Source: Hoeflea ulvae (GTDB taxonomy: Bacteria > Pseudomonadota > Alphaproteobacteria > Rhizobiales > Rhizobiaceae). From it: a stretch of 64,000 nt of DNA. Shown here in pieces: positions 7,075 through 36,151 of the stretch (position 1 is the first letter of the stretch; the number at the start of each line of letters is the position of its first letter). The notes beneath the pieces are model-generated. The model worked only from the letters and a program-made list of their open reading frames with translations, had not been told where the DNA came from and did no database searches. Position numbers and translations under genes: made by a program. The DNA lies in the NCBI RefSeq assembly GCF_026619435.1, contig NZ_JAOVZQ010000001.1, positions 627,501 to 691,500 of the forward strand. The letters are read 5' to 3'.

Positions 7075-7176
7075 TCCCGATCCCGATCCCGATCCCGATC
7101 CCGATCCCGATCCCGATCCCGATCCCGATCCCGATCCCGATCCCGATCCTGTTTCTGTTTCTGTTTCTGTTCCTGC
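7075..7176 (+). repeat. Hexanucleotide tandem repeat (TCCCGA)12 plus diverged units
   Basis: Twelve perfect copies of TCCCGA run from 7075 to 7146, followed in the same 6-bp phase by five pyrimidine-rich units (TCCTGT, three TTCTGT, TCCTGC) to 7176. Every junction creates GATC. The array lies between the tRNA-Leu promoter and the EamA gene. Because the unit is six bases, any frame through it stays open and yields artificial dipeptide repeats; I do not read it as coding. Confidence 0.95.
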
Positions 7177-11807: not shown

Positions 11808-12932
11808 ATGAAATACTGTTACCAGTGCCTTCAACCCGACACCAGGCCCAACACCCGGTTCACCGAAACCGGACTGTGCCCGGCATGCAATTATTGGCAG
11901 CAGCACAAGCAGATCGACTGGGACGAGCGCACCGAGATCCTGCTGGAGATTGTCGAGGAATATCGCAATCCCGATGCGCAGTATGACTGCATCATCGGTG
12001 TTTCCGGCGGCAAGGACAGCACCCGCCAGGCGGTCTGGGTCAGGGACAAGCTGGGGCTGCGGCCGTTGCTGGTCTGCCTGTCCTACCCGCCGCAGCAAGT
12101 TACCCAGCTCGGTGTCGACAACCTCTCCAACCTGATCGAGCTCGGCTTTGACGTGATCCAGTGCTGCCCCGGTCCGCAGACCTGGCGCCAGTTGATGGGT
12201 GTGGCGTTCGAGAATTTCGCCAACTGGGCGAAGGCCACGGAAATGGCGCTGTTTTCCGCCGTGCCGCGGCTGGCGATCGACTACAAGATCCCGCTGATCC
12301 TCTGGGGTGAAAATCCCGGCCTGCAGCTTGGCGATCTCGGAACGCTCGGCCGCACCGGCTATGACGGCAACAATCTGCGCAACATGAACACCCTGGCGGG
12401 TGGCGACAGGGACTGGATGCTGGCCACCGGGCTGTCGGAGAAGGACCTGATCCCCTACGACTATCCGACAATCGACGAGTTCGAGCAGCATGGTATCCAG
12501 GTGATCTATCTGGGATGGTTCCTGGGCGACTGGTCGCTGCTCAACAACGGCATGATCTCGGGGTTGAGCGGATTGAGGTTCCGGCATGATCCGCCCGAAA
12601 ACACGGGTGACCTTTACGGGGTGACGGCGCTTGACGAGGACTGGGTGACGCTCAACCAGATGATCAAGTACTACAAGTTCGGCTTTGGCCGTGCGACGGA
12701 CTATGCCAATGAAATGATCCGGCTCGGCACGGTCGACCGGAAGACGGGAATTGAGCTGGTGCAGAAATATGACGGCATGTGTTCGGACACCTATATCCAG
12801 AACTTCTGCGACTATATCGGCATCACGCCGACGGCGTTCTGGGAGAAGATCCTCGCGGTGACCAACAAGGACCTGTTCGACGTCTCGGGCAATCAGATCA
12901 AACCGAAATTCACCGTCGGCGAGGGGCTATGA
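11808..12932 (+). CDS. N-acetyl sugar amidotransferase (PseA/WbpG family), PP-loop intact
   Basis: A 374-residue protein. Two cysteine pairs (CYQC at 4-7 and CPAC near 25-28) suggest a zinc knuckle, followed by the ATP-pyrophosphatase loop GVSGGKDST near residue 64-72. This family activates a sugar N-acetyl group with ATP and uses ammonia from a HisH/HisF-like pair to make an acetamidino group, as in WbpG of P. aeruginosa and PseA of Campylobacter. Its stop overlaps the hisH-like start by four bases, and a diverged paralogue follows hisF. With the pseudaminic acid genes downstream, an amidino pseudaminic acid is the likely product; acceptor specificity is inference. Confidence 0.87.
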   Translation: MKYCYQCLQPDTRPNTRFTETGLCPACNYWQQHKQIDWDERTEILLEIVEEYRNPDAQYDCIIGVSGGKDSTRQAVWVRDKLGLRPLLVCLSYPPQQVTQLGVDNLSNLIELGFDVIQCCPGPQTWRQLMGVAFENFANWAKATEMALFSAVPRLAIDYKIPLILWGENPGLQLGDLGTLGRTGYDGNNLRNMNTLAGGDRDWMLATGLSEKDLIPYDYPTIDEFEQHGIQVIYLGWFLGDWSLLNNGMISGLSGLRFRHDPPENTGDLYGVTALDEDWVTLNQMIKYYKFGFGRATDYANEMIRLGTVDRKTGIELVQKYDGMCSDTYIQNFCDYIGITPTAFWEKILAVTNKDLFDVSGNQIKPKFTVGEGL

Positions 12933-13575
12933 CTGAAGACAATCCGGGTTCCGTCCGCCCCTGCATCGGCCTGATCGATTACAAGGCCGGCAATATCGCC
13001 TCATTGCGCGGAGCGCTGGAGCGGCATGGCTTCAAGGTCATCGTGTCCGACAGCGCTTCCGCCCTGGACCGGGCCGATGCGCTGGTTCTGCCCGGCGTCG
13101 GGTCGGCCCAGGTCGCCATGCAGACGTTGCGCGACAACGGCCTGGACCGCTACATCGCCGACTGTTTCAGGTCCGGCACCCGGCCGATGCTCGGCATATG
13201 CCTGGGCATGCAGCTGATGTTTGACCGGTCGGAGGAAGGCCCCACCGAGACGCTGGGCCTGTTGCCCGGCACGGTCAGCCGCTTCGCCGACAATGGCTGC
13301 CATGTCGGCTGGGATGTCACCCGGACGCTGGCAGACGACTGCGACGAGCCAAGCTGGGCGCGGGCAGCGTTCTATTTCAACCATTCCTATTACGTGCCCG
13401 CCGACCCGGACTACACGATTGCCGAAGTGTCCGGCGACGACAATGTGCCGATGGCCGCTATCGTCCAGAAGGGCTGCTTTACCGGGGTGCAGTTCCATCC
13501 CGAAAAAGCCAGGCCGCCGGCGCGACGCTGCTCGCCCGGCTGCTGGGCAATGCAAGAGGAGAGCCACATGCTTAA
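12929..13575 (+). CDS. hisH: HisH-like glutamine amidotransferase, frameshifted near the 3' end
   Basis: Class I glutaminase: DYKAGN near residue 17-22, nucleophile Cys91 in GICLGMQ and the His190/Glu192 pair in FHPEK, so the triad is complete. It would deliver ammonia through the HisF-like partner to the amidotransferases, not to histidine synthesis. At 13503-13507 (five A's after GAA) the frame moves: as written, translation runs on in frame into hisF, making one 480-residue chain. With one extra A the normal ending SQAAGATLLARLLGN appears and stops at TAA 13573, overlapping the hisF ATG. Hence a one-base deletion, a sequencing error or a natural HisH-HisF fusion like that of eukaryotes. 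Start overlaps the previous stop (ATGA). Confidence 0.8.
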
Positions 13576-14371
13576 GCGGCTGATTGGCGTCATCACCGTC
13601 AAGGACGGTTGGGCAGTCCAGTCGATGGGCTATGGCCGGTACCTGCCGCTTGGCCGGCCGGAAATCCTGGCGGAAAACTATGACCGATGGTTTCTCGACG
13701 AGATTCTGATCCTGTCGATCGACCGGACCACGAAAGGCCTCGGCCCCGATTTCGAGACCATCCGCAAGATCGGCGCGCGCCGGCTGGTGACGCCGCTGGC
13801 CTATGGTGGCGGGATCTCGAATGCCGCACAGGCGCTCGACATTGTCCATGCCGGGGCTGACCGGCTCTGCTGTGAAACCGCCTTTGATGCGGAAAGCCCC
13901 GACAGGCAGGCACAGCAGGCCGCGCTCGAGGCAATTCGCGATGCTGTCGGTGTCCAGGCCATGTTGCGGGTCATGCCGCTCGAGAAGGCCGACGACGGCA
14001 CCATTGTCAGGTTCGATTACCGTAGCCGCCAGACCCGCCCGCTGCTGGTCACCGAGATCCAGGCGCAGAGTGCGCTGTTTTCCGAGTTGATCCTTGTCGA
14101 TCGCCGCGGAGAGGGTGGACTGGCGACCTTCGACCCGGCGCTGCTTGAGCCCTTCGCCGGCAGCCATCTGCAGATTGTCGCATTTGGCGGCATCACCGAG
14201 CGTGATCAGGTCGCAGACCTGCTGGGCCGGGACAATGTTTCCGCCGTCGCGGTCGGCAATTCGCTGAGCTACAGGGAGATGGCCAACCGAACCCTGATTG
14301 CCCCCGGCTCGATCGACGACACCCGTTTCATAACCTATGGCGTCGAGACGCGAGGAGCGCGGCAATGGTGA
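13568..14371 (+). CDS. hisF: HisF-like partner subunit of sugar amidotransferase
   Basis: A 267-residue (beta-alpha)8 barrel protein similar to imidazole glycerol phosphate synthase HisF, with AYGGGIS and VAFGGIT phosphate-binding loops. The usual LDVKDG near the N-terminus, whose first Asp is catalytic in HisF, is ITVKDG here, so cyclase activity is doubtful. Such HisF2 paralogues accompany WbpG/PseA enzymes and are thought to pass ammonia from the glutaminase. The start ATG 13568 lies behind AGAGGAGA. As the sequence stands it is also fused in frame to the hisH-like gene. Its last bases overlap the next start (ATG 14365, TGA 14369). Confidence 0.87.
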   Translation: MLKRLIGVITVKDGWAVQSMGYGRYLPLGRPEILAENYDRWFLDEILILSIDRTTKGLGPDFETIRKIGARRLVTPLAYGGGISNAAQALDIVHAGADRLCCETAFDAESPDRQAQQAALEAIRDAVGVQAMLRVMPLEKADDGTIVRFDYRSRQTRPLLVTEIQAQSALFSELILVDRRGEGGLATFDPALLEPFAGSHLQIVAFGGITERDQVADLLGRDNVSAVAVGNSLSYREMANRTLIAPGSIDDTRFITYGVETRGARQW

Positions 14372-15657
14372 TTACGTGCAAACGCTGCCTCTATACCGAG
14401 AACCATGCGCTGGGGATCGTCTTCGATGACGAAGGCATCTGTTCGGGCTGCCGGATCCACGAGGAGAAGGACAGCCTCGACTGGGACAAACGCTGGACGA
14501 AGCTGGAGCAGGTGGTCGAACCCTATCGCCGCAAGGACGCACAATATGACTGCATCGTCCCGGTCACCGGCGCCAAGGACGGGCATTTCATTCTCGATCT
14601 CGTGGTCAACCGTCTTGGCCTGACGCCGCTCGTGGTGTCCTACAACAAGTTCTTCAACACCCCCGAAGGCATCGCCAATCTGGCCAATCTGCGGATCAAG
14701 TTCAACGTCGACTTCCAGCTGAAGAACGTGAACCCCCATGTGGTGAAGCGAATTTCCAAGCACACGCTCTATCGCTACGGCAACATGTACTGGCCGGCCC
14801 TGGCCGGCGAGACCGTGTTCCCGGTGCAGGTGGCGGTGATGATGAAGATCCCGCTGATCATCTGGGGCGCGCATCAGGGGCTCGAACAGGTCGGCATGTT
14901 CTCGCATGAACACGAGGTCGAGATGTCGCGGCGATACCGGAAGGATCACGATCTTTTCGGCACCGAGGCGCGCGACCTGACCCAGGCCTGGTCCGATGTG
15001 ACCGACGAAGATACGCTGAACTACCGGTATCCGGCCTTTTCCGACATCGAAGCGCTGCAATTGCGCGGCATCTATCTGGGCAATTACGTCCGCTGGGATC
15101 CGCTGGCCCAACATCTCGACATGGTTGCCCGCCACGATTACCAGGGCCGGTGGCAGGCGCGCACCTTTGATATCTACGACCATGCCGATTGCTACGCCTA
15201 TCCGGGGCTGCATGATGTGCTGAAATATTTCAAGCACGGCTACTCCAAGGTCCGGGACCAGGCCAGCAGGGAGATCCGCTTCGGCCGGCTGGATCGCGCG
15301 CAGGCCGCGGCCCTGGTGTCCTATTACGAATCGCGCGAACCTGCAGACATGGATCTGCTTGCCAATTGGCTGGGCGTGCCGGAAGCCACGTTGAAGATGG
15401 TCGTCAACCGGCACCGCAACGACAGGATCTGGGACGAGGTCTCGCCAAACCGCTGGGTCAGGCGCCCGGGGACCGGCGCGGCCGAGGAACTGGAAGATAT
15501 CGGCGGCATTCCGGCGTCCCAGCCGGAGCTTCCGTGGAGCCAGCCGGGCTGTTCAACCCACTGCAAGGATGCCGAACGCAAGCTGATCACCGTCGGACGG
15601 GGGGTAAAATATCCGCTGCCGCCGCCGCTTCCGGAGGATGAGGGCGGATATCTATGA
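14365..15657 (+). CDS. Second PseA/WbpG-like amidotransferase paralogue with altered PP-loop
   Basis: A 430-residue relative of the protein at 11808, sharing the layout: cysteine pairs CKRC and CSGC, then YDCIVPVTGAKDG where the paralogue has YDCIIGVSGGKDS. The pyrophosphatase signature is therefore changed at three of six positions (S to T, second G to A, last S to G), which may weaken ATP use or alter the donor. It also has about 55 extra C-terminal residues with two cysteines (CSTHC) and a proline-rich end. Coupled to hisF by overlap. It could be a second specificity, a structural partner of the first enzyme, or an inactive copy. Confidence 0.8.
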   Translation: MVITCKRCLYTENHALGIVFDDEGICSGCRIHEEKDSLDWDKRWTKLEQVVEPYRRKDAQYDCIVPVTGAKDGHFILDLVVNRLGLTPLVVSYNKFFNTPEGIANLANLRIKFNVDFQLKNVNPHVVKRISKHTLYRYGNMYWPALAGETVFPVQVAVMMKIPLIIWGAHQGLEQVGMFSHEHEVEMSRRYRKDHDLFGTEARDLTQAWSDVTDEDTLNYRYPAFSDIEALQLRGIYLGNYVRWDPLAQHLDMVARHDYQGRWQARTFDIYDHADCYAYPGLHDVLKYFKHGYSKVRDQASREIRFGRLDRAQAAALVSYYESREPADMDLLANWLGVPEATLKMVVNRHRNDRIWDEVSPNRWVRRPGTGAAEELEDIGGIPASQPELPWSQPGCSTHCKDAERKLITVGRGVKYPLPPPLPEDEGGYL

Positions 15658-15754
15658 GACTGGAATTCCGCATGTTTGACGCCGGCGCAGGTGACTGCCG
15701 CGCCGGCAGGCCCTGCTTTCACACCCATTTTTCGCATTGGATCGGCCAGACCGG

Positions 15755-17227
15755 ATGACACAGATGAAAAAGACGGTTCTTTGTTTTTCCCGCTCCTACC
15801 TGTCGGTGCTGCTGCCGCGGCTGCTGGCCGAGGACAAGGACATCGAGGCGCTGCACATCGTCCAGACCGACGAGGAAGAGCGCAACATCGTCGCCCTTGG
15901 CCAGAAGGTCGTGCTCAATCTGGGCAAGATCAGCAGGGAAGCCGTGCGTTCAAAGGACAGCCCGGTGTGGCGGGAACCGGCGGACATGCGCAGCCTGACC
16001 GGCTTTGATTTTTCCCCGATCTATGCGGATCGATACCTGCCGGAATTTCCGCAAGAGACACGTCAGCGGATCGCCGGCGCCATTCAGGCCGGTTTCGAGG
16101 AAATCTTTGCCAGCCACCGGATCGCCGGCGTGCTGTCGGAACCGGTGGCGCTGTTTCCGACCCACTACCTGCTGTATCTGTGCAAGAAGCATGACGCCCG
16201 ACCGCTTTACTGGGCCAACACCTATTTCCCGGGGCACTTCTATTTCACCCACACCATCAACATGGTCAATCCGGTGCGGCGGGACGTGCCGGAGGCGCTT
16301 GATGAAGACGGCCCGCTGGTCAGCGAGATCCGCAGCTATCTGGAAAAAGTGGCGTCCGACGAGGCCGGTCCGGTCTATCACCACAAGTTTTCCAAGGGAA
16401 AACAGTCCGGATGGTCCTATTTCCGCCAGCGCAAGGGCATGGACGCCCTCGTGCTGTCCCCGGGACTGGTGTCGAAAGGCCTGCAGATCGCCCGCTGGGG
16501 ACGGGCGCAATCGCTCAAGGCGCTGTTTCCGCGCACCGGCGACTATATCAGCGCGGCATCGGCTGCGGAGCACCGCTTCTATCTGCGCAATCAGTTCTAC
16601 AGCCTGTCGCATTACGATGAAGCGCCCGGCGTCTTCGATGCCGGCAATGTCTTCTTCCCGCTGCAATACGAGCCGGAAGCCTCGCTGCTCTACGCCGCAC
16701 CCTGGGCGCGCAACCAGTTTGCGGTGATCGAATCCATCCTGCAGGCGCTGCCGGAAGGCAAGCTCCTGTGGGTCAAGGAACACCCCAACCAGTTCGGTCC
16801 GCTGTCCGGTCCGGCCTGGCAGGCGCTGCGACGGCGCTATTCCAATCTGCGGCTGATCTTCGGCCGGGAAAACGGCAGGCACCTGATCCAGCGCTGCAGC
16901 CTGGCAATCGCGATCTCGTCGACGGCGGGTCTCGATGCGCTGATCTTCGGCCGCAAATGCTTCGTCCTGGGGGACAGCTACTACCAGGATTTCCCCGATG
17001 CGGTGCGGATCGGCAGCACGCGCCATCTTGCCGCAGCCCTCAACGACATGACGAACTATGTTGAAGAAAACCGCCGAGGTGATATTGCAGCTCTGACGCG
17101 TGCGCTCGGCAAGTTCGCCCGCTTCACCCATCCCGGTGACCCGCAGCCGAGCAACGAACTCTACGTTGCGGAAAATCTCGATGCCCTGCGGCGGGCAATC
17201 CGGTCGGAATTGGCAATCGAGGGCTGA
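15755..17227 (+). CDS. Capsule-type polysaccharide synthesis protein (KpsC/KpsS-like C-terminal half)
   Basis: A 490-residue soluble protein. The C-terminal third resembles the Capsule_synth family: WVKEHPNQFG near residue 340, then SLAIAISSTAGLDALIFGRK near 385-400 and a following LGDSYYQDF, matching the KEHP and STxGxEAL elements of KpsC/KpsS proteins that act on Kdo-like acids. The N-terminal part (TVLCFSRSYLSVLLPRLLAE) looks like the first strand and helix of a GT-B fold. A glycosyltransferase for a nonulosonic acid such as pseudaminate is a reasonable guess. Start choice: ATG 15755, with ATG 15764 possible. Confidence 0.65.
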   Translation: MTQMKKTVLCFSRSYLSVLLPRLLAEDKDIEALHIVQTDEEERNIVALGQKVVLNLGKISREAVRSKDSPVWREPADMRSLTGFDFSPIYADRYLPEFPQETRQRIAGAIQAGFEEIFASHRIAGVLSEPVALFPTHYLLYLCKKHDARPLYWANTYFPGHFYFTHTINMVNPVRRDVPEALDEDGPLVSEIRSYLEKVASDEAGPVYHHKFSKGKQSGWSYFRQRKGMDALVLSPGLVSKGLQIARWGRAQSLKALFPRTGDYISAASAAEHRFYLRNQFYSLSHYDEAPGVFDAGNVFFPLQYEPEASLLYAAPWARNQFAVIESILQALPEGKLLWVKEHPNQFGPLSGPAWQALRRRYSNLRLIFGRENGRHLIQRCSLAIAISSTAGLDALIFGRKCFVLGDSYYQDFPDAVRIGSTRHLAAALNDMTNYVEENRRGDIAALTRALGKFARFTHPGDPQPSNELYVAENLDALRRAIRSELAIEG

Positions 17228-22644: not shown

Positions 22645-23643
22645 ATGTTCGAAAATTCGACTATTCTGGTCACGGGCGGCACCGGCTCGTTTGGTAAAAC
22701 CTTCGTCCCGATGACATTGGAACGCTACAACCCGAAGAAAATCATCATTTTCTCCCGGGACGAGATGAAGCAATGGGAAATGGCCAAGGGCTATCACAAC
22801 GACCCCCGCGTCCGCTTCTTCATCGGCGATGTCCGCGATCGCGAGCGCCTGTACCGTGCTCTCGACGGTGTCGATTATGTGGTCCACGCGGCTGCGACAA
22901 AGATCGTTCCGACCGCCGAATACAACCCCTTCGAATGCGTGAAGACCAACATCAACGGCGCGATGAACGTCATTGACGCGGCGATCGACAAGAAGATCAA
23001 GCGCGTCGTCGCGCTGTCGACCGACAAGGCTTCATCGCCGATCAATCTCTACGGCGCGACCAAGCTCGCCTCGGACAAGCTCTTTGTCGCGTCCAGCGCC
23101 TATTCGGGCGAGCACGGCACCACGTTCTCGGTCGTGCGCTACGGCAATGTCATGGGATCGCGCGGTTCGGTGATTCCGTTTTTCATGTCGATCAGGCAGA
23201 GCGGCGAGCTTCCCATCACCGACCCGCGCATGACCCGGTTCATGATCACCCTGGAACAGGGTGTCGAACTGGTCTGGCATGCCTTCGAGGACATGATCGG
23301 CGGCGAGATCTACGTCAAGAAGATCCCCTCCATGAAGGTCACGGACATTGCCAGCGTGGTCGCGCCCGAGGCAAAGCAGAAAACCGTGGGCATCCGTCCG
23401 GGCGAGAAGCTGCATGAACAGATGATCGGCTTCGAGGATGCGCCGTTCACCTATGAATATCCGCACCATTTCAAGATCCTGCCGGCGATCAACAACTGGG
23501 CCACGAGCGAGGACCGCATCAAGGACGGCAAGCTGGTGTCGGAGAATTTCATCTATTCGAGCGAGATCAACCCCGAATGGATGCAGGATTCCGAACTGGC
23601 CGAGTGGATCGCCGCCAATGACGACAAGATAGGCATTATCTGA
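22645..23643 (+). CDS. pseB: UDP-N-acetylglucosamine 4,6-dehydratase (inverting), PseB
   Basis: A 332-residue SDR enzyme with the NADP loop GGTGSFGKTF near residues 11-20 and the catalytic set Asp127, Lys128 (STDKA) and Tyr136/Lys140 (YGATK), spaced as in H. pylori FlaA1. It converts UDP-GlcNAc to the 4-keto-6-deoxy-L-arabino sugar with C5 inversion, the first step to CMP-pseudaminic acid, in the cytoplasm. The soluble 330-residue form without membrane domain distinguishes it from the large dehydratase at 40211. pseC starts one base after its stop. Confidence 0.95.
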   Translation: MFENSTILVTGGTGSFGKTFVPMTLERYNPKKIIIFSRDEMKQWEMAKGYHNDPRVRFFIGDVRDRERLYRALDGVDYVVHAAATKIVPTAEYNPFECVKTNINGAMNVIDAAIDKKIKRVVALSTDKASSPINLYGATKLASDKLFVASSAYSGEHGTTFSVVRYGNVMGSRGSVIPFFMSIRQSGELPITDPRMTRFMITLEQGVELVWHAFEDMIGGEIYVKKIPSMKVTDIASVVAPEAKQKTVGIRPGEKLHEQMIGFEDAPFTYEYPHHFKILPAINNWATSEDRIKDGKLVSENFIYSSEINPEWMQDSELAEWIAANDDKIGII

Positions 23644-23644
23644 C

Positions 23645-24805
23645 ATGATTCCCTACGGACGCCAGGATATTTGCGAAAGCGATATTGATGCGGTCATCGA
23701 CGTCCTGAAATCGGATTTCCTGACGCAGGGCCCGCGCGTCCCGGATTTCGAGAAATCCGTCGCAACGAAGGTCGGCGCAAGCCATGCTGTCGCCGTCAAC
23801 AGCGCCACATCGGCCCTGCACATCGCCTGCCTGGCGCTCGGTCTCAAGCCTGGCGACCGGCTCTGGACCTCTCCGATCAGCTTCGTCGCTTCGGCAAATT
23901 GCGGGCTCTATTGCGGTGCGATCGTCGACTTCGTGGATATCGACCCCGAGACCTACAACATGTCGCCTGTGGCGCTGGAAAAGAAGCTCCAGGCCGCCGA
24001 GGCCGATGGCACCTTGCCCAAGGTCGTGGTGCCGGTGGACATGTGCGGCCAGTCGGCCGACCTGCGCGAAATCCGGGCTCTCGCCGACCGCTACGGCTTC
24101 AAGATTCTCGAGGATGCCTCGCATGCCATCGGCGCGCGATATGACGGGCATTATGTCGGCGACGGGCGCTATGCCGACATCACGGTGTTCAGCTTTCACC
24201 CGGTCAAGATCATTACCACCGCAGAAGGTGGCCTAGCGGTGACCAATGACAAGGATCTGGCGCAGACCATGTCCCTGCTGTCCAGCCACGGCATCACGCG
24301 GGATCCCGCGCTGATGACCGGGGAAAAGGATGGCGCCTGGTATTATCAGCAGATCGAGCTGGGCTTTAATTACCGGATGACCGAGATGCAGGCAGCGCTG
24401 GGCATTTCCCAGATGGCGCGGCTGGATGACTATGTCGCGCGCCGCGCGGCCCTGGCGGAGCGTTATGACCGTTTGCTCGAGGGACTGCCTCTGCGCAGGC
24501 CCCGGCAGATGGAGGCCACGGCGTCGTCCTGGCATCTCTATATCATACAGCTGCACGATGCCTCGCAGCACAACAGCGTGTTTGATTCCCTGCGCGATGC
24601 GGGAGTCGGCGTCAATCTGCACTACATCCCGATCCACCGGCAGCCCTATTACCAGAGGTTGGGCTTTTCTGCGGGGGATTTCCCGGCCGCCGAGGACTAT
24701 TACACGCGGGCGATTTCGATCCCGCTGTTCCCGACCATGACCGAAGACCAGCAGGACTACATCGTCTCCCGCCTGCGCGGCTTGCTGACGGGAGCCAGGG
24801 CATGA
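23645..24805 (+). CDS. pseC: UDP-4-amino-4,6-dideoxy-N-acetyl-beta-L-altrosamine transaminase, PseC
   Basis: A 386-residue DegT-family PLP aminotransferase. Lys188 in FSFHPVKIITTAEGG forms the internal aldimine, and the segment IPYGRQDICESDIDAV at the N-terminus followed by NSATSALH is typical of PseC. It aminates C4 of the PseB product using glutamate. Length and motif spacing match the family. It is immediately downstream of pseB and overlaps pseF by four bases (ATGA). Confidence 0.94.
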   Translation: MIPYGRQDICESDIDAVIDVLKSDFLTQGPRVPDFEKSVATKVGASHAVAVNSATSALHIACLALGLKPGDRLWTSPISFVASANCGLYCGAIVDFVDIDPETYNMSPVALEKKLQAAEADGTLPKVVVPVDMCGQSADLREIRALADRYGFKILEDASHAIGARYDGHYVGDGRYADITVFSFHPVKIITTAEGGLAVTNDKDLAQTMSLLSSHGITRDPALMTGEKDGAWYYQQIELGFNYRMTEMQAALGISQMARLDDYVARRAALAERYDRLLEGLPLRRPRQMEATASSWHLYIIQLHDASQHNSVFDSLRDAGVGVNLHYIPIHRQPYYQRLGFSAGDFPAAEDYYTRAISIPLFPTMTEDQQDYIVSRLRGLLTGARA

Positions 24806-25494
24806 GAATCGCCGTCATTCCGGCGCGGGGCGGCTCAAAGCGAATCCCGCGCAAGAACGTCAAGGAATTTGCCGGAAAGCCGATGATCTCCTGGTCGATC
24901 GCCGCAGCACAGGCATCGGGCGTGTTTGACCGTGTCATCGTCAGCACCGATGATGAAGATGTGGCCACGATTGCCAGACAGCACGGCGCGGAAGTGCCGT
25001 TCATGCGTCCGGCCAATCTTGCCGATGACCATACGCCGACCGTTCCGGTGATAGCCCATGCCCAGCAATGGGTTGCGGACCATTGGGGTGCGCCGTCGGC
25101 AGTCTGCTGCATCTATGCGACAGCGCCCTTTGTCCGCGCCGAGGATCTTCGCGAAGCCTATGAGCTCCTCTCGGGGTCGGATGCCGACTATGTCTTCCCA
25201 GTCACCAGCTTTCCCTTCCCGATCCAGCGCAGCGTGCGCCTGACAGAGGAAGGCCGGATGGAGATGTTCTGGCCCGAACATGCGCTGACCCGCAGCCAGG
25301 ATCTTGAGGAAGCCTATCACGACGCCGGGCAGTTCTATTGGGGCCGCCCCGAGGCCTGGCATGGCGGCCGCATGCTTTTCGGCGCGGGCTCGATCCCGCT
25401 GATTGTTCCGCGCTACCGCGTGCAGGACATTGACACGATGGAAGACTGGGCAACGGCCGAAGCCAAGTTTCATGCACTGCAGAATCTGGGATGA
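24802..25494 (+). CDS. pseF: Pseudaminic acid cytidylyltransferase, PseF
   Basis: A 230-residue CMP-nonulosonate synthetase. The N-terminal nucleotide-binding motif PARGGSKRIPRKN and the following GKPMISW are characteristic. It activates pseudaminic acid with CTP to CMP-pseudaminic acid, the donor for transferases. It is coupled on both sides by four-base overlaps (pseC and pseG), which supports the Pse assignment over the similar NeuA or LegF enzymes. Confidence 0.93.
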   Translation: MRIAVIPARGGSKRIPRKNVKEFAGKPMISWSIAAAQASGVFDRVIVSTDDEDVATIARQHGAEVPFMRPANLADDHTPTVPVIAHAQQWVADHWGAPSAVCCIYATAPFVRAEDLREAYELLSGSDADYVFPVTSFPFPIQRSVRLTEEGRMEMFWPEHALTRSQDLEEAYHDAGQFYWGRPEAWHGGRMLFGAGSIPLIVPRYRVQDIDTMEDWATAEAKFHALQNLG

Positions 25495-26642
25495 CCGCCG
25501 GCCGGCTAGACATGACCGTGGCCTTCCGGGCCGACGCGTCGCTGTCAATCGGGGCGGGCCATGTGATGCGGTGTCTGACCCTTGCGAACGAACTTTCCGA
25601 ACGCGGCGCGCGCTGCCGCTTTGTCTGCCGCGCCCATGACGGCAACCTGATCGAGCGGATTGCAGCCTCGGGGATGGAGGTTTCAGTCCTGCCCGCGCCC
25701 GGCAAGCAGGCCGACGGCTCTGACCAGCCGCTGACATGGCAGGACGACGCCGCCCAGACCGCCGGCGAACTGGCGGGACAAGAGGTCGATTGGCTTGTGG
25801 TGGATCACTACGGACTGCCCCATGAGTGGGAAAGCGAAATGGCCGGGCACTGCGCAAGGCTGATGGTCATCGACGATTTTACCAATCGCAAACATTGCTG
25901 CGACGTGCTCCTGAACCAGAATCTGGGCGCGCAGGAAGCCGCTTATGCCGGGCTTGTCGGAACCGGTACCCGCGTGCTCGCCGGCCCTTCATTCGCCCTG
26001 CTGCGACCGGAATTTGCCCGGGCGCGGGCCGAAAAGCAGCGCAATCCGCATCCGCATCCGCGGGCGACGGGCCCGAAGCGGATGCTGATTTCCATGGGCG
26101 GTGTCGACCTTCCCAATGTCACCGGCTGGATGCTTGAGCAGTTGAGTGACTGCGCGGCCGCGGACGCATGGGAAATGACAGTCGTCATCGGCGGGCAGTC
26201 CCCGCATCGCGAGACTCTCCGCAAAATACTGTCGGGCATGACGATCCCGAGCAGGCTGATCGTCGATGCGACCAATATGGCCGAATTGATGGCCGATGCG
26301 GATCTGGCAATCGGCGCGGCCGGCTCGACCTCGTGGGAACGCTGCTGCCTCGGCTTGCCGACGGTCGTGGTGGTGATCGCGGACAACCAGGAAAGCATTG
26401 CCCGGGCGCTGGTCGAGGCCGGAGCCGCGGTGCGCGTGCAATTCGGCGAGGATCAGGCCACTGGCGCGGTGCTGGCGGATGTGCTGGGCAATCCCGATCG
26501 CATCGCCATGATGGCAAAGCAGGCAGCCTCCATTGCCGACGGCCTGGGCGCTGGGCGCGTCAGCGATGTGTTGATCGGCGCGGCACCGGGTGCCGGCGAA
26601 GTTGCGTCCGCAGGCACACGATCCTTGACCGGGCCGGATTGA
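25491..26642 (+). CDS. pseG: UDP-2,4-diacetamido-2,4,6-trideoxy-beta-L-altropyranose hydrolase, PseG
   Basis: A 383-residue GT-B-fold hydrolase. The N-terminal GAGHVMRCLTLANEL includes the catalytic-type His of PseG (GxGHxxR). The second half has GAAGSTSWERCCLGLP, the usual UDP-binding segment. It removes UDP from the C1 of the diacetamido sugar before condensation by PseI. It is longer than the roughly 280-residue H. pylori enzyme but no acetyltransferase domain is attached. ATG 25491 overlaps pseF; ATG 25512 is possible. Confidence 0.92.
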   Translation: MTAGRLDMTVAFRADASLSIGAGHVMRCLTLANELSERGARCRFVCRAHDGNLIERIAASGMEVSVLPAPGKQADGSDQPLTWQDDAAQTAGELAGQEVDWLVVDHYGLPHEWESEMAGHCARLMVIDDFTNRKHCCDVLLNQNLGAQEAAYAGLVGTGTRVLAGPSFALLRPEFARARAEKQRNPHPHPRATGPKRMLISMGGVDLPNVTGWMLEQLSDCAAADAWEMTVVIGGQSPHRETLRKILSGMTIPSRLIVDATNMAELMADADLAIGAAGSTSWERCCLGLPTVVVVIADNQESIARALVEAGAAVRVQFGEDQATGAVLADVLGNPDRIAMMAKQAASIADGLGAGRVSDVLIGAAPGAGEVASAGTRSLTGPD

Positions 26643-26921
26643 CCTGCGACAGGGAGAAAATCGGTCGGAAAATTGCCGGATTGTGCCGTGACAAGCCGTG
26701 GAAGACCCGTCTCCGCGATTGACGGTTCAGGCTGACGATGCAACTTGATACCAATGCCGGGCGCCGCTGGAAGGCCGCCTGGCCCCGGATTTGCCGTTGC
26801 CGGCGCAATTCGACCTGCACCGCACGGCTGACAGTGAACGCCACCCGTCCTTTTTCTAAGGCAAGGAAGGTGTTCAACCTGCTTATCAATGATGTCGGGC
26901 CGACGGCCGGCAAGGAAAGGG
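26643..26921. other. Gap in the pse operon where pseH is often found
   Basis: The 279 bp between pseG and pseI is the largest gap within the pse block. No complete gene or promoter was recognised. A short open segment with coding-like base use is listed separately. Confidence 0.5.
26749..26859 (+). pseudogene. Possible gene remnant between pseG and pseI
   Basis: A 36-codon open segment without start codon, bounded by TGA 26746 and TAA 26857. Its codons are strongly G/C-ending and it reads RLAPDLPLPAQFDLHRT, which looks like the end of a protein. I cannot name the family; it is not clearly PseH. It may equally be chance. Confidence 0.25.
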
Positions 26922-28004
26922 ATGAAAACAATGGCGCGATCAATATCGATCGGGGGGCGTATGATCGGTGCCGATCATCCGCCATATGTTATTTGTGAAC
27001 TCTCGGGCAATCACAATGGATCGCTCGAGCGTGCCCTGCACATGATCGAGGTCGCTGCCCAGACAGGCTGCGATGCAATCAAGCTGCAGACCTACACGGC
27101 CGACACGCTGACCATCGATCATGACGGACCGGAGTTTCAGATCACCGGTGGCCTGTGGGACGGGCGCACGCTGTACAGCCTCTACCAGGAAGCCCACACT
27201 CCCTTCGAGTGGCATGCGGCGCTGTTCGCCAAGGCGGCGGAATGCGGCGTGACGATGTTCTCGACCCCGTTTGACGAAACCGCTGCCGACCTGCTCGACG
27301 AGCTCGGCGCACCGGCATTCAAGATCGCATCCTTTGAAGCCATTGACCTGGCCCTGATCGCCTATGTTGCCCGCAAGCGCAAGCCGATGATCATATCGAC
27401 CGGACTTGCCAATCTGGGTGAGATCGAAGCCGCAGTGCACACCGCCCGCGACAATGGCTGTGACGACCTGATTCTGCTGCACTGCATATCCTCCTACCCC
27501 GCGCCGACGGACCAATCCAACATCCGGACGCTTCCGCATCTGGGAGAGGCGTTCAATGTGGTGGCCGGCCTGTCCGACCACACGCTGGGAACGGCGACCT
27601 CGGTCGCCTCGATCGCGCTGGGCGGCGCGGTGATCGAGAAGCACTTCACGCTGGCGCGGTCCGATGGCGGACCAGATGCGGCGTTCAGCCTCGAGCCCGA
27701 CGAATTCAAGCGGCTGTGCGATGACTGCTACAATGCCTGGCTGTCACTGGGCGAGGTCAGCTATGACATAAAGGGCGCCGAGGCCGGAAACGTCGTCTTC
27801 AGGCGTTCGCTGTATGTCGTCGAGGACATCGCCGCGGGCGAAGCCTTCACCAAGCGCAATGTCCGCTCGATCCGGCCCGGTTACGGGCTGTCGCCTGCAG
27901 CGCTCGAACGGGTGCTCGGTTCGACCGCGACACGGGATATCCGCCGCGGCGAGCCCCTGAGCTATGATCTGCTCCGTCAGACATCGGCAAAAGCCGGCGA
28001 ATGA
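26922..28004 (+). CDS. pseI: Pseudaminic acid synthase, PseI
   Basis: A 360-residue NeuB-family enzyme: N-terminal TIM barrel beginning near CELSGNHNGSLERAL, with KLQTYTADT and MFSTPFDE, GLSDHTLGT and EKHFTLAR active-site segments, and a C-terminal antifreeze-like SAF domain (RSLYVVEDIAAGEAFT). It condenses the PseG product with phosphoenolpyruvate to pseudaminic acid. I start at ATG 26922 behind AAGGAAAGGG; ATG 26931 is close and an ATG at 26889 would add 11 residues without similarity. The next gene overlaps its stop (ATGA). Confidence 0.94.
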   Translation: MKTMARSISIGGRMIGADHPPYVICELSGNHNGSLERALHMIEVAAQTGCDAIKLQTYTADTLTIDHDGPEFQITGGLWDGRTLYSLYQEAHTPFEWHAALFAKAAECGVTMFSTPFDETAADLLDELGAPAFKIASFEAIDLALIAYVARKRKPMIISTGLANLGEIEAAVHTARDNGCDDLILLHCISSYPAPTDQSNIRTLPHLGEAFNVVAGLSDHTLGTATSVASIALGGAVIEKHFTLARSDGGPDAAFSLEPDEFKRLCDDCYNAWLSLGEVSYDIKGAEAGNVVFRRSLYVVEDIAAGEAFTKRNVRSIRPGYGLSPAALERVLGSTATRDIRRGEPLSYDLLRQTSAKAGE

Positions 28005-31709: not shown

Positions 31710-32239
31710 GCAACCTGTCCTCCACCCTGCGTGGCGATTTCGATCATTACCTGCGGCTGGCCCAGCGGCCCGAGGGTGCGCCGCTGTGGCGCATGTTCGT
31801 CAATCCGAGATCCCTTCCCGTCGCCCTGATCCGCTGTGCGCGCGCATTGGAGCAAGGCCCGGTTTCGCTGCTGGCGCCCCTCCTCCGGCTCCTTGTCCTG
31901 TGGTGGTTCCGGGTCGAGGCCCCGAAGGGCGTCGACATCGCGCCCGGGCTGGTGCTGCCGCATCCGGGCGGCATTGTGCTCGGCTCGGCCCGGATCGGCG
32001 CCAACGTGATCATTTTCCAGAATGTGACGCTCGGGGCCCGCAGCTATGACGGCGCGTTTGACCTGTCCACCCGACCGGTCATCGAGGATGATGTCGTCCT
32101 CGGCACAGGCGCGGTGATCCTGGGGCCCGTCACCGTCGGCAAGGGCGCGCAGGTGGCTGCCAATTCGCTGGTTCTGTGCGATGTTCCTCCCGGCGCGACC
32201 GCCATTGGCGTGCCCTGCGAGATACGGGAACGGAAATGA
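31706..32239 (+). CDS. Serine acetyltransferase-like O-acetyltransferase
   Basis: A 177-residue protein with a helical N-terminal half and hexapeptide repeats from about residue 70: GVDIAPGLVLPHPGGIVLG with the catalytic His, then ANVIIFQNVTLGA and VLGTGAVILGPVTVGKGAQ. It ends with the loop IGVPCEIRERK. This is the CysE-like fold often used to acetylate sugars in polysaccharide loci. GTG start at 31706 overlaps the previous stop, and its own stop overlaps the next start (ATGA). Confidence 0.83.
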   Translation: MSNLSSTLRGDFDHYLRLAQRPEGAPLWRMFVNPRSLPVALIRCARALEQGPVSLLAPLLRLLVLWWFRVEAPKGVDIAPGLVLPHPGGIVLGSARIGANVIIFQNVTLGARSYDGAFDLSTRPVIEDDVVLGTGAVILGPVTVGKGAQVAANSLVLCDVPPGATAIGVPCEIRERK

Positions 32240-33225
32240 CACTGCGCGTCGGCATCATCGGCCTGGGCCGCATTGCCTGGGGCTATGACGGTGGTCACTG
32301 GGACAGCACGGCGCCGGCGCTTACCCATGCCTCGTGCTTTGCACGCCATCCCGACACCGAGCTGGTTGCAGCCTATGACCCCGTGACGGAGGCGCGTGCC
32401 GCATTTCGCACCGGCCATGCCGGGAACGCGCAGGTCGCGCTCCACGATGATCTGGACGCCTTTCTCAAGGAAAATCTCGATCTGGTCGCCATCGCCTCTC
32501 CGTCGGAGCATCACGCTCTCCACATCGCTGCCTGTCTGGATGCCAATGTGCCACGGCTGTGGATCGAAAAGCCGGTGACGCTGAAACTCGATGACTATTC
32601 GCGTCTTCTCGAGCGCATCCAGTCGATGCCGCAACCGCCGCGGACCTGCGTGAACTATCCGCGCCGCGCATTGCCGCAGCTTGCCGAGATGAAGCGCCAT
32701 CTCGCGTCAAGTCAAACCCGGCCCGAAAACATTTCCATCGCGGTAAACTACAGCCGCCAGCTTGCGGTCAACGGCGTGCACATGCTCGATCTGCTCAGCG
32801 CCCTGACCGGCGCCACCGAGGTTCCACCGCTCGACTACCTGCGCAAGGGTCCCAACGGCAATCCGCAATTCGGCTTCAGCCTAGCGGGTCATCCGGTCAC
32901 GGTGACAGGTCATGATCTGCCCTATCATCTCATCGAACTGAGCATCACCGATGGTCGCGGCCGCCTGTCGCTTGTGCGCGGCGGTCGTGATCTGGTCTGG
33001 GAAAAGGCCGTCCCCAATCCGGGCTATCCGGGCTTTTTCCATCTGGCTCCACCTCAAGGCCTTGAGGGTGTCGAAGACGGGGAAACGGCGATGAACCAGT
33101 CCATGTACCGCATGCTGTGTTCCCTGGCTGACCCGCAGGCGCCGGAACTGTCGACCTTCGAGACGGCCTGGTTCGCCCAGGCGCTTCTCGAAAGCGTCAG
33201 CGCAAGGGGCGGGCTGGCGGCATGA
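32236..33225 (+). CDS. Gfo/Idh/MocA-family oxidoreductase
   Basis: A 329-residue NAD(P)-dependent protein. The N-terminal Rossmann motif is GIIGLGRIAWGYDG and the conserved WIEKPVTLKLDD carries the EKP lysine of this family near residue 113. Such enzymes oxidise or reduce hydroxyl groups of sugars, often before an aminotransferase; a DegT-type aminotransferase lies two genes downstream at 34311, so a ketosugar intermediate is plausible. ATG 32236 is chosen because the family motif starts at once. Overlaps on both sides by four bases. Confidence 0.87.
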   Translation: MTLRVGIIGLGRIAWGYDGGHWDSTAPALTHASCFARHPDTELVAAYDPVTEARAAFRTGHAGNAQVALHDDLDAFLKENLDLVAIASPSEHHALHIAACLDANVPRLWIEKPVTLKLDDYSRLLERIQSMPQPPRTCVNYPRRALPQLAEMKRHLASSQTRPENISIAVNYSRQLAVNGVHMLDLLSALTGATEVPPLDYLRKGPNGNPQFGFSLAGHPVTVTGHDLPYHLIELSITDGRGRLSLVRGGRDLVWEKAVPNPGYPGFFHLAPPQGLEGVEDGETAMNQSMYRMLCSLADPQAPELSTFETAWFAQALLESVSARGGLAA

Positions 33226-34238
33226 GGATATTGTTTGCCGCCGGAGATGTCGGCGGGGCGCGTTCGATCCTGCCCGTGGCCCGGCTTGCGTCCACGCGCG
33301 GCCATCACGTCAGCGCCCTGCAGCACGGCGTTCTTGCCACCGAAGGCGATCCGGCCTGGACCTGGCATGGCTTCGATCAGGCCCTCGACGCAGTGACCGG
33401 CATGGACATGCTGATTTACGCCACCAGCGTTTCCGATCAGAAAGCGGTGCAGACTGCGGCCCGTGCGCGGCATGCCGGTGTGCCCTGCCTGCACGTGCTG
33501 GACAACTGGTCATCCTATGCCGAGCGCATCAGCGGGATCGTGCCCGATGCCTATGCGGTAATGGACGAACTGGCGCAGGGCGAGGCGATTGCCGCCGGCG
33601 TCCCCGAACACATTATCCATGTCACGGGGCACCCAAATCTCGGGACGCTCGCCGATGAGGCGCAGGCTTATCCGGCGCTTTCGGGCAAGACCGGGATCCT
33701 GTTCGTCTCCGAGCCTGCCAGGGCCGACCAGGGCCCATCGGGACGGGGTTATGACGAGGCCGGGGTTGCCGAAGCGCTGGTGGCGGGGCTCGCCCGATGC
33801 AGGTTTGACGATGCGACGCTCTGGGTCGCGCCTCACCCGCGCGAAGACCGCGCCGACGTGACGGCGCGCATGACCGGTCTGATGCAACGCCACGGCGGCT
33901 TCATGCCGGTAAGGATTGTCCCGGCAGACCAGGTCCGCAGCTGCCTGCATGGCGCCAGCCACGTGGCGGGCATGACATCTATCCTGCTTTACGAAAGCTG
34001 GCTTTTGGGCCGGCCGACGCTGTCGCTGCAGCCGGGCCTTTGTGTCGCGGGACTGAGAACCCTGTCCCGCCGCCAGGGCGTGTTCTTTCATGACCGCAAG
34101 GCCGGCACTGACGAAACCATCGGGAAATGGCTGGCCGCCGCACCGGGACGGGCGCAACCGGCGCTGAGCCGGCACAGGGATGCGGCCGAAAATGTTTTGG
34201 CCCTTGCCGTGGAAATCAAGAAACCGTCAATTAAGTAG
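33222..34238 (+). CDS. Putative GT-B-fold glycosyltransferase, family not recognised
   Basis: A 338-residue soluble protein. The start MRILFAAGDVGGARSILPV resembles the glycine-rich first loop of GT-B enzymes that grip a nucleotide sugar. Later elements HVTGHPNLGTL and GMTSILLYESWLLGRP look like the hinge and the donor-binding helix seen in GT-B glycosyl- and glycerophospho-transferases. No CAZy family could be assigned by eye. It ends the tightly overlapping block 30056-34238 and could add pseudaminic acid or xylose. Confidence 0.6.
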   Translation: MRILFAAGDVGGARSILPVARLASTRGHHVSALQHGVLATEGDPAWTWHGFDQALDAVTGMDMLIYATSVSDQKAVQTAARARHAGVPCLHVLDNWSSYAERISGIVPDAYAVMDELAQGEAIAAGVPEHIIHVTGHPNLGTLADEAQAYPALSGKTGILFVSEPARADQGPSGRGYDEAGVAEALVAGLARCRFDDATLWVAPHPREDRADVTARMTGLMQRHGGFMPVRIVPADQVRSCLHGASHVAGMTSILLYESWLLGRPTLSLQPGLCVAGLRTLSRRQGVFFHDRKAGTDETIGKWLAAAPGRAQPALSRHRDAAENVLALAVEIKKPSIK

Positions 34239-34310
34239 AGCCTTGGCCTCAGACATGATGCATTGTTTGGTTTACTGTCTGGCACGCCATCGGCTTAAGG
34301 GAGCGATATC

Positions 34311-35609
34311 ATGCACATGAACCTAAATGAGCTTGCCATTCACGGTGGCAAGAAAGTCCGCGACACATTGTTCCCTGCCTATGTCACCGCCGGTGCAGAG
34401 GAAAAAGCCGCGGTGTCCAAGGTGATCGATGGCGGCGTGCTGTCGAATTATCTCGGCGCCTATCACGAGAATTTCATGGGTGGACCGGTGGTGCGCGAAT
34501 GCGAGGCCGAATGGGCTGCCTATTTCGGCGCGGCCCATGCGCTGTGCGTCAACTCGAACACCTCCGGCCTGATCGCGGCCCTCGGCGCCATCGGCATCGG
34601 CCCGGGCGATGAAGTGATCGTGACCAGCTATTCGATGTCGATCTCCGCCACTGCGCCTCTGTTTTACGGTGCGCTTCCGGTCTTCGCCGATATCGAGGCC
34701 GACATGTTCTGCCTCGATCCGGCATCGATCGAAAGCCTGATAACGCCCAATACCAGGGCGATCCTTGTCGTCGACCTGTTCGGACAGCCCTTCGACGCGC
34801 CGGCAATCCGGGCGCTCGCCAAGAAGCATGACCTGAAGATCATCGAGGACTGCGCCCAGGCGCCGGGTGCCTCGCTGAACGGCGAGAAGGCGGGCCTTCT
34901 GGGCGACATCGGCGTGTTCTCGCTCAATTATCACAAGCACATTCATTCCGGCGAGGGCGGCATTCTTCTTACCAATGACGATGATCTTGCCCAGCGCCTT
35001 TCGCTGATCCGCAATCACGCCGAATGCGTGGTCGGCCCAATGGGAGTCACCGATCTCAGAAACATGATCGGCCACAATTTCCGCATGACCGAGATCGAGG
35101 CGGCCATTGCCATGTGCCAGTTGCGTAAGCTCGGCGGCCTCCTCAATGACCGCTGGGACAGGGTCCGTTATTTCGAAAGCAGGCTCGATGGTTTCGAAGG
35201 CTTCTCCATGCCGAAGGTGCGCGACGGAGCCGTGCACTCCTTCTATGTGCATCCCTGCCTGTGGAACATGGAGACCGGGGTTGACCGCAATCGCTTTGTA
35301 GAAGCGGTGAAGGCCGAATTACCCTGCTTCGAATTGCGCGAAAAGGAAGGCGTCAAGTTGGGCGCCGGCTATGTCCGGCCGATCTATTACCTGCCCGCCT
35401 TCCAGCAGCGCGTCGCCCTGGGCGGCAATCTCAACCCGCTGGTGGATGCCAGGCAGGATTTCGGACCCGGCCTGTGCCCCGTCGCCGAGGATTTGCACTT
35501 CAACCGGCTGATCTCGCATGAATTCATCGTGCCGAGCATGCAGGAATCCGACATCGACGACGTCGTGCGGGCGATCGAGAAGGTCTGGGATCAGAGGCAC
35601 AAGCTGTAA
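34311..35609 (+). CDS. DegT/DnrJ/EryC1/StrS-family sugar aminotransferase
   Basis: A 432-residue PLP enzyme with Lys209 in NYHKHIHSGEGG as the Schiff-base residue, and the family segments NSNTSGLIAALGAIG and EDCAQAPGASLNG. It differs clearly from PseC at 23645 (longer, different lysine context), so a second amino sugar or aminocyclitol is made. The Gfo/Idh protein at 32236 may supply its keto substrate. ATG 34311 follows AAGGGAG after a 72-bp gap. The GNAT gene begins at its stop codon (TAATG). Confidence 0.9.
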   Translation: MHMNLNELAIHGGKKVRDTLFPAYVTAGAEEKAAVSKVIDGGVLSNYLGAYHENFMGGPVVRECEAEWAAYFGAAHALCVNSNTSGLIAALGAIGIGPGDEVIVTSYSMSISATAPLFYGALPVFADIEADMFCLDPASIESLITPNTRAILVVDLFGQPFDAPAIRALAKKHDLKIIEDCAQAPGASLNGEKAGLLGDIGVFSLNYHKHIHSGEGGILLTNDDDLAQRLSLIRNHAECVVGPMGVTDLRNMIGHNFRMTEIEAAIAMCQLRKLGGLLNDRWDRVRYFESRLDGFEGFSMPKVRDGAVHSFYVHPCLWNMETGVDRNRFVEAVKAELPCFELREKEGVKLGAGYVRPIYYLPAFQQRVALGGNLNPLVDARQDFGPGLCPVAEDLHFNRLISHEFIVPSMQESDIDDVVRAIEKVWDQRHKL

Positions 35610-36151
35610 TGGCCAGGGCGGAGCGCCTCAGGGGCCAACATGTGCTGCTGGAGCCGTTCTCCGACCGGTATCTGTCCGAAGACTATGTCGGCTGGCTCAA
35701 TGATCCGTCCGTCATGCGCTATTCGGAACAGCGGCACCGGCGCCACAGCCTTGACAGCTGCAAGGCCTTTGTCGCCTCGTTCGACACGTCGCCCCATCAG
35801 CTCTGGGCGATCGTCAGGGCGGATACCGGCGAGCATATCGGCAATATCACCGCCACGCATGATCCCAACAACCATATTGCCGATATCGGAATTCTCATCG
35901 GCGCCAAGGGCGTTCAGGGCAAGGGCTATGGCAGGGATGCCTGGCGCACGGTGCTGGATTACCTTGTCGCCAGGCCGGACCTCTTCAAGGTGACCGGCGG
36001 ATGCATGGCGGCAAACACCGCCATGGTGCGCATCATGGAAAGCTGCGGCATGGCCGGGGACGGCTGCCGCCCGGCCCATTATCTGCTTGATGGCGCCCCG
36101 GTCGATCTGGTGTTTTACGCCCTCAGGGGCGCCCGCGGGCTGGCGGCCTGA
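35609..36151 (+). CDS. GNAT N-acetyltransferase, candidate PseH
   Basis: A 180-residue GNAT protein of the RimJ/PseH type: VLLEPFSDRYLSEDYVGWL at the N-terminus and the acetyl-CoA loop GVQGKGYGRDAW (Q/RxxGxG/A) near 108-118. The pathway needs PseH to acetylate N4 of the PseC product, and no other candidate is present in the locus. However it is coupled to the second aminotransferase, so it may acetylate that enzyme's product instead. It is the last gene of the forward locus; the next gene converges. Confidence 0.82.
   Translation: MARAERLRGQHVLLEPFSDRYLSEDYVGWLNDPSVMRYSEQRHRRHSLDSCKAFVASFDTSPHQLWAIVRADTGEHIGNITATHDPNNHIADIGILIGAKGVQGKGYGRDAWRTVLDYLVARPDLFKVTGGCMAANTAMVRIMESCGMAGDGCRPAHYLLDGAPVDLVFYALRGARGLAA

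Follow-up and report, generated by a model that had tools for sequence, protein, structure and literature searches.

Amidine groups give bacterial surface sugars a positive charge. In the family mechanism HisH, whose catalytic residues are a Cys, a His and a Glu, makes ammonia, HisF conducts it, and an N-acetyl sugar amidotransferase (NASAT) takes it up, using ATP to activate the N-acyl carbonyl. Systems of the WbpG/WbuX type have HisH and HisF as partners, one NASAT going with one HisH and one HisF. The subject here is a block of four genes from Hoeflea ulvae in which two NASATs, termed X1 and X2, flank a HisH/HisF pair. The block lies in a stretch of 64,000 nucleotides (the window; contig NZ_JAOVZQ010000001.1, positions 627,501 to 691,500) of a genome assembled as two contigs, 5.1 Mb overall. 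We tentatively favour the reading that the four gene products make up a single heteromeric enzyme which amidinates a pseudaminic-type sugar, X1 using ATP and X2 being a specialised partner.

The systems nearest to this block are WbpG of P. aeruginosa O5 and WbuX of E. coli O145, as treated in an excerpt of PMC10607449; the likeness lies in the NASAT family, the tetracysteine motif and the surface-sugar setting. The Hoeflea block and its relatives differ in having two NASATs which are not sisters, one of them usually with an altered PP-loop (the ATP loop), in the similar C-terminal motif of both NASATs, and in a divergent HisF clade. Where the three-gene WbpG-HisH-HisF system has one NASAT, two are found in the window and in 78 of the 80 related loci described below. 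According to the same excerpt the working of NASATs is poorly understood, and the NASATs aligned there are three from V. vulnificus and two from Campylobacter. In PMC13317340 the legend of a figure that makes a comparison with C. jejuni names PseA as well as PtmG as acetamidino-synthases, ie two NASAT-type enzymes for nonulosonates in one organism. These act on different sugars, however, pseudaminic acid (Pse) and legionaminic acid (Leg), and the flanking of one HisH/HisF pair is a feature of the four-gene module. A sequence-only reading of the window had stated that known systems have one amidotransferase, and this is only partly right, given PseA and PtmG in the one source and the several NASATs in the other. 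Nor are NASATs the sole proposed route to amidination, since a portion of PMC6120980 tentatively ascribes the amidine of the Tannerella pseudaminic acid to an asparagine synthetase-like protein. Searches of the open-licence PMC literature turned up no paper on the four-gene unit.

The four genes overlap or abut within 11808-15657, X2 sharing its first 7 bases with the end of HisF:

11808..12932, + strand: X1, a NASAT/WbuX protein of 374 aa with PP-loop SGGKDS, a tetracysteine zinc motif and a C-terminal KFTVGEGL tail (TIGR03573, 279.4 bits)
12929..13505, + strand: HisH-like glutaminase (TIGR01855, 155.3 bits) with the catalytic Cys and His-Pro-Glu, after which the frame is lost into HisF
13568..14371, + strand: HisF-like barrel of a module-specific clade (PF00977 match; WbuZ match under the cut-off)
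14365..15657, + strand: X2, the second NASAT, 430 aa, with PP-loop TGAKDG, four zinc cysteines and a C-terminal ITVGRG motif (TIGR03573, 281.8 bits)

Both X1 and X2 exceed the TIGR03573 cut-off of 203.2 bits and are the only two matches to it in the genome. The arrangement originally proposed is confirmed, ie two NASAT paralogues around HisH and HisF in one overlapping block with a pse locus downstream, with one correction, the single open frame of HisH and HisF described below. The two proteins are 29% identical over 330 aligned columns and are not sisters in the tree, which rules them out as recent duplicates. The CxxC...CxxC zinc motif is complete in all 78 of the X1 and all 82 of the X2 proteins compared, as well as in the X1 and X2 of the window, so that the claim of both cysteine pairs in the second copy holds throughout. 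Comparison of X2 with the Legionella pneumophila enzyme LpNASAT (PDB 8WEX) indicates that the NASAT fold is retained, although LpNASAT has an SGGKDS loop, unlike X2, and X2 residues 379-430 fall outside the alignment. When X2 was searched against a database, 4774 of the 8000 candidates scored had an E-value of 1e-3 or better, and on alignment of X2 with 27 of the matches the four cysteines were invariant and a C-terminal ITVGKG element was conserved. Both profile and fold make X2 a homologue of the NASATs; we do not claim for it the status of a standard ATP-using NASAT.

GTDB genome contigs were scanned with an X2 alignment, which confirmed 199 relatives, and the best 80 of these supplied the loci; the 82 X2 proteins in the counts are those of the 80 loci, of the window and of locus L003. 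L001, L002, L029, L031 and L032, being copies of genes of the window or of genome G333, were left out of the tree and motif counts. Since the loci were found through X2, an X1 without X2 cannot show up in them. Some are not independent: the X2 proteins of L047/L061, L062/L072, L083/L084 and L107/L112 are more than 90% identical, L052 and L071 come from one assembly, and the X2 proteins of L003 (from G333) and L033 (from Rhizobium sp. C4) are identical, so that G333 and Rhizobium sp. C4 may be one genome. The order X1-HisH-HisF-X2 on a single strand was found in 78 of the 80 loci, and by our own open reading frame (ORF) calls the four genes are directly adjacent in 76, with intervening ORFs called in L038 and L101. 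The two exceptions to the order are L055, where HisH is the first gene at the end of a contig, and L105, in which X2 is followed by X1 and no HisH or HisF was detected. A further genome, G711, has the order HisH, HisF, X2, X1. Recurrence of the gene order is far beyond chance. The hosts, going by their titles, include Alpha-, Beta- and Gammaproteobacteria, Bacteroidota, Cyanobacteria (Prochlorococcus, Pseudanabaena), Verrucomicrobia, Chloroflexi, Margulisbacteria and a Woesearchaeon, and many of the genomes are metagenome assemblies. Within the window's own family only two of 394 genomes (G000 and G333) have a match of X2 grade, the next best being 33% identical.

Relatives outside the module were also seen. 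One that is close to X2 by profile score belongs to Magnetococcus sp. PR-3 (L144), where a HisH-HisF-NASAT locus has PseI- and PseF-like neighbours; it differs from the module in its GGGKDS loop and in that the 19 kb read shows no second NASAT. In G401 (L143, 604-3021) HisF and a relative of X2 form a single fused frame of 805 residues, located behind HisH; the contig starts just before HisH, and the genome has a single NASAT match. A search for further relatives sister to X2 in the order of G407 gave matches at 1e-60 in five of 48 genomes, the query included, and the other four were only 33-38% identical. A different tandem NASAT pair, with loops SGGKDS and SGGKDG, lies at 8811-11304 of L148, near HisH, HisF and PseF- and PseI-like genes, and falls outside both the X1 and the X2 clades.

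The second copy had been read as having TGAKDG where the active-site loop SGGKDS is expected. This is borne out for X2 of the window, whose X1 has SGGKDS. By the motif SGGxDS, a definition taken from the excerpt of PMC10607449, the loop is intact in 81 of 81 X1 (all SGGKDS) and in only six of 82 X2, that of the window not among them. X2 proteins keep the second residue, Gly, in 81 of 82, the fifth, Asp, in 82 and the sixth, Ser, in 79, and the third, Gly, in just 12. That third Gly is present in 81/81 X1, in 59/59 other NASATs with letters there and in 120/120 relatives of X2 found via the Magnetococcus sp. PR-3 protein. The loops of those 59 (from a set of 60) comprise 52 SGGxDS, six SGGKDG and one GGGKDS, and those of the 120 relatives are SGGKDS (109) or GGGKDS (11). 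Conservation in X1 (≥93%) and in the 60 other NASATs (≥85%) but not in X2 is confined to four alignment columns. Two of these are in the PP-loop: residue 1 is Ser in 51 and Thr in 32 X2 proteins (n=83), and residue 3 is Ala in 68, Gly in 12 and Ser in three. Outside the loop, one Gly has become Asp or Asn in 83/83 and another Gly is kept in 41/83. Judged from the alignments, the change in X2 is a focused one, above all at loop residue 3 of an otherwise conserved protein, and does not by itself prove a dead site.

The exact loop TGAKDG was considered as a mutation private to the window genome, and this is partly so: among the 120 matches listed it is shared only by P0001, which is 95% identical to X2 of the window. 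Changes at loop positions 1 and 3 are common across the X2 clade. The replacement of the last loop Ser by Gly, as in the window X2, is also seen as SGGKDG in six NASATs belonging to neither X1 nor X2 (L120, L122, L124, L127, L128 and L132).

In the larger tree, made with 203 X2, 81 X1 and 121 sister sequences together with other NASATs, X2 was monophyletic (203/203, support 0.853), as were X1 (81/81, 1.0) and the sister group of X2 (121/121, 1.0). In a smaller tree X1 and X2 were not sisters, X2 and two close relatives joining at 1.0 and X2 alone at 0.382. None of the 60 other NASATs was placed inside the X1 clade. The HisF proteins of the module form a clade (82/82 versus 35 others, support 0.77) and the HisH proteins nearly do so (80/82 with two intruders, support 0.84). 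The expectation that the second copy would form a conserved clade of its own beside the first was thus upheld, by the monophyly of X2 and by the full order in 78 of the 80 loci. Of the four proteins X1 and X2 are the best conserved, with mean pairwise identities over 78 loci of 0.60 for X1 and 0.61 for X2 (408 columns), against 0.44 for HisH and 0.41 for HisF. Between the window and Rhizobium sp. C4 the non-synonymous divergence (dN) of X2 is 0.24 and the synonymous divergence (dS) about 3; for X1, dN is 0.20 and dS is saturated.

HisH of the window passes its equivalog cut-off of 105.4 bits and has both GICLGM and HPE. In the HisH proteins of the module elsewhere HPEKS is found in 75 of 78, the remaining three having HPEAF, HPEIS and HAEKS at the matched site. 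In the window 12929-14371 is a single open frame, HisH and HisF being joined because HisH leaves its usual frame near 13505, after the catalytic His-Pro-Glu. Its nearest relative, P0121 (92% identical, 215 aa), is intact and separate, and HisH and HisF were in one ORF at no other locus among those examined. The frame change falls within a short homopolymer, which makes an assembly error quite possible; a real mutation is the alternative. HisF of the window scored 78.6 bits against an NCBIfam cut-off of 299.7 for WbuZ, and 66.4 against 310 for AglZ/HisF2, missing both, and HisF of L033 (83.4 and 81.3 bits, respectively) was also below. The other 38 of the 39 HisF proteins scanned would likewise fall below both cut-offs, going by the best E-value (1.2e-77, for WbuZ). 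The HisF-like barrel is presumed to be the ammonia conduit. Distance correlations were highest for the pair X2-HisF (0.925), with 0.819 for X1-HisF; that value and the fusion in G401 together hint that X2 is the member which sits on HisF.

X2 is longer than X1 by 56 residues, in keeping with the C-terminal tail of about 55 residues ascribed to it, yet the motif in the tail is not unique to X2, as X1 ends in a similar [FY]xVGxG. Typical endings are [KR][FY]xVGxGL in X1 and a tail carrying Y[IV]T[IV]GKG in X2. The pattern [FYLIVH]x[VIL]GxG was matched by 67 of 78 X1 in the last 12 residues, that of the window included, and by 76 of 82 X2 in the last 40. It was matched by none of the 60 other NASATs and none of 120 sister proteins of X2, and by shuffled tails at 1.7%. 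A common docking site for the two tails is plausible, given that the motif is shared by two separate clades, X1 and X2, and is missing from the other NASATs examined.

The pse locus in the window is real, its five genes all being above their cut-offs; no PseH was identified among the window genes scanned:

22645..23643, + strand: PseB (TIGR03589, 530.9 bits)
23645..24805, + strand: PseC (TIGR03588, 550.1 bits)
24802..25494, + strand: PseF (TIGR03584, 337.7 bits)
25491..26642, + strand: PseG (TIGR03590, 311.3 bits)
26889..28004, + strand: PseI (TIGR03586, 500.5 bits)

PseF, PseG or PseI was present in the flanks (up to 7 kb) of 51 of the 80 loci. PseI was above cut-off in 63 of 78 module genomes (30/38 and 33/40), searched without L052 and L072, against 31 of 199 sampled genomes in a control set of Pseudomonadota only, which included the window genome. 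A second set of genes, referred to here as the cassette, recurs beside the module, and in the window lies at 32236-36151, behind the pse genes (bit scores and E-values below are for hidden Markov models of module neighbours):

32236..33225, + strand: Gfo/Idh/MocA oxidoreductase (PF01408; 139.8 bits), homologues elsewhere often upstream of X1
33222..34238, + strand: epimerase-fold family protein (no Pfam match; E 1.7e-41), the family often just upstream of X1 elsewhere
34311..35609, + strand: DegT-family aminotransferase, distinct from PseC (PF01041; under the PseC cut-off; 580.9 bits)
35609..36151, + strand: GNAT acetyltransferase of the cassette (PF13302; 182.5 bits)

Beside the module the Gfo/Idh gene was found in 39, DegT in 44, GNAT in 45 and the epimerase-fold family in 44 of the 80 loci. 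PseF, PseG or PseI was present with fewer than two cassette genes nearby in 19 loci, and the flanks of 18 had neither. Controls were 20 of the 30 available PseI loci that have no X2 (one of 5.8 kb, one of 11 kb, and two carrying other NASATs). One of them, L162, had all four cassette genes and the rest were below thresholds; the profiles were built from module loci and are therefore biased toward these over the 20 controls. The four genes of L162 lie near PseI in a 20 kb region in which no NASAT was detected, and the cassette may consequently work alone. A structural model of the epimerase-fold member of L091, which is 19% identical to the window protein, had a predicted local distance difference test (pLDDT) score of 94.9 and a template modelling (TM) score of about 0.65 to UDP-GlcNAc 2-epimerases. 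Assignment of the cassette as WbpB/WbpE/WbpD/WbpI, while conceivable, had no sequence support: its DegT protein scored 119 bits against WbpE, 148 against KdnA and 171 against perosamine synthetase, and its Gfo protein had weak PDB matches only. One reading is that the cassette adds an amino group to pseudaminic acid, which we offer as a lead and not as a test; an excerpt of PMC3210612 reports an 8-amino nonulosonate from Flexibacter maritimus.

Downstream of X2 in the window are a Capsule_synth-like gene (15737-17227) and a gene without a Pfam match (17313-18167), homologues of which are near the module in 15 and nine loci, respectively, the window counted. A perfect tandem repeat of the hexamer TCCCGA, 12.5 copies, occupies 7075-7149.

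Observed directly in this comparison are the conserved co-occurrence of the four genes, the distinct clades, a change of the loop that is largely restricted to X2, the common C-terminal motif and the association with PseI. Complex formation, the division of labour, the substrate and the product we infer. The heteromer would act on a nonulosonic acid of pseudaminic type, probably activated with cytidine monophosphate, and convert an N-acyl group on it to an acetamidino group. HisH would free ammonia from glutamine and the HisF-like barrel would pass it on; X1, with its intact PP-loop, would activate the amide carbonyl with ATP, and X2 would dock to HisF, hold the substrate, or both, no longer acting as a standard ATP pyrophosphatase. 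A heteromer whose subunits divide the work between them is the most economical account.

Several points weigh against this heteromer. Among the 120 database matches of X2, 15 fit SGGxDS and seven of these are SGGKDS, which may be set beside the six of 82 in the loci; with Gly2, Asp5 and Ser6 retained, X2 may be able to bind and use ATP. The six SGGKDG proteins among the other NASATs show that loop variation is not unique to X2. Gene context was seen for one of the 120 X2-related proteins (L144), and 11 of the 120 have GGGKDS; the proposition that the presence of X1 preceded the change of the loop is weak, resting as it does on that one sister locus and one fusion (L143). The node joining X2 to its sister relatives in the larger tree is weakly supported (0.056). 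Distance correlations are high anyway among linked genes, the C-terminal pattern was picked after the tails had been viewed, and the X1 proteins of L105 and L136, which do not have the motif, were excluded from its count. PseI was below cut-off in 15 of the 78 module genomes. Finally, HisH of the window appears frameshifted, and activity in the Hoeflea ulvae strain is uncertain.

The sequence-only reading had offered a heteromeric complex or two amidine sites on one glycan. The main rival to the heteromer is the latter, in which X1 and X2 are separate active enzymes with one ammonia source, each amidinating a different N-acyl group, eg at N-5 and N-7 or on an extra amino group from the Gfo/DegT/GNAT genes, to give a bis-amidinated nonulosonate. 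Pse does carry two N-acyl groups, X2 has the NASAT fold and both proteins the zinc motif; the cassette accompanies the module in about half of the loci versus one of 20 controls, and the Flexibacter maritimus sugar offers a precedent for a further amino group. Against this are the altered loop in 76 of 82 X2, the 19 loci with Pse genes and fewer than two cassette genes, and the failure to find a paper on doubly amidinated nonulosonates in the open-licence PMC literature. Neither is proven, and because the ATP loop of X2 is altered the heteromer fits better than two equivalent active sites, which we consider rather unlikely, if worth taking seriously. A combined proposal seems more doubtful: a two-subunit amidating enzyme, with a canonical and a remodelled PP-loop on one HisH/HisF supply, might together with the cassette yield a nitrogen-rich pseudaminic acid bearing two amidines, or a cyclic amidine and an added amino group. 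No description of either type of nonulosonate was found in the same literature.

That X2 is a NASAT of changed chemistry, still binding a nucleotide yet transferring or activating something else, for example an acyl group, or an intramolecular amine to give a cyclic amidine, we think improbable. The near-fixed loop positions 2, 5 and 6 beside the variable 1, 3 and 4, and the strong constraint on X2, are consistent with such a role, yet no residue change pointing to another reaction was identified, and the 17 positions conserved in all three groups are kept in X2 by the definition of that list. There is a smaller chance again that X2 is a regulatory or structural pseudoenzyme outside the reaction, holding HisH off, for instance, until X1 is loaded. 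Its altered loop and the closeness with which its distances follow HisF would suit that role, but along its length X2 matches X1 in conservation (61% mean identity over 408 columns), more than a scaffold seems to need. Lastly, a decaying or accidental duplicate is barely credible: although the window X2 differs from the standard loop at three positions and adjoins a frameshifted HisH, TGAKDG is shared by P0001, and an old, widespread and constrained clade that is not sister to X1, in conserved order, with 61% mean identity across loci and a dN of 0.24 against a dS of about 3 with Rhizobium sp. C4, rules out decay.

A conserved four-gene unit across several phyla, mostly in genomes with pseudaminic acid genes, suggests a two-part enzyme that has not yet been studied. 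It is a widespread block of genes for which no printed name was found in the open-licence PMC literature, and it could aid the prediction of unusual pseudaminic acids from genomes. A pair of NASATs in which one ATP loop is kept and the other mostly changed is also a natural experiment on the division of NASAT functions.

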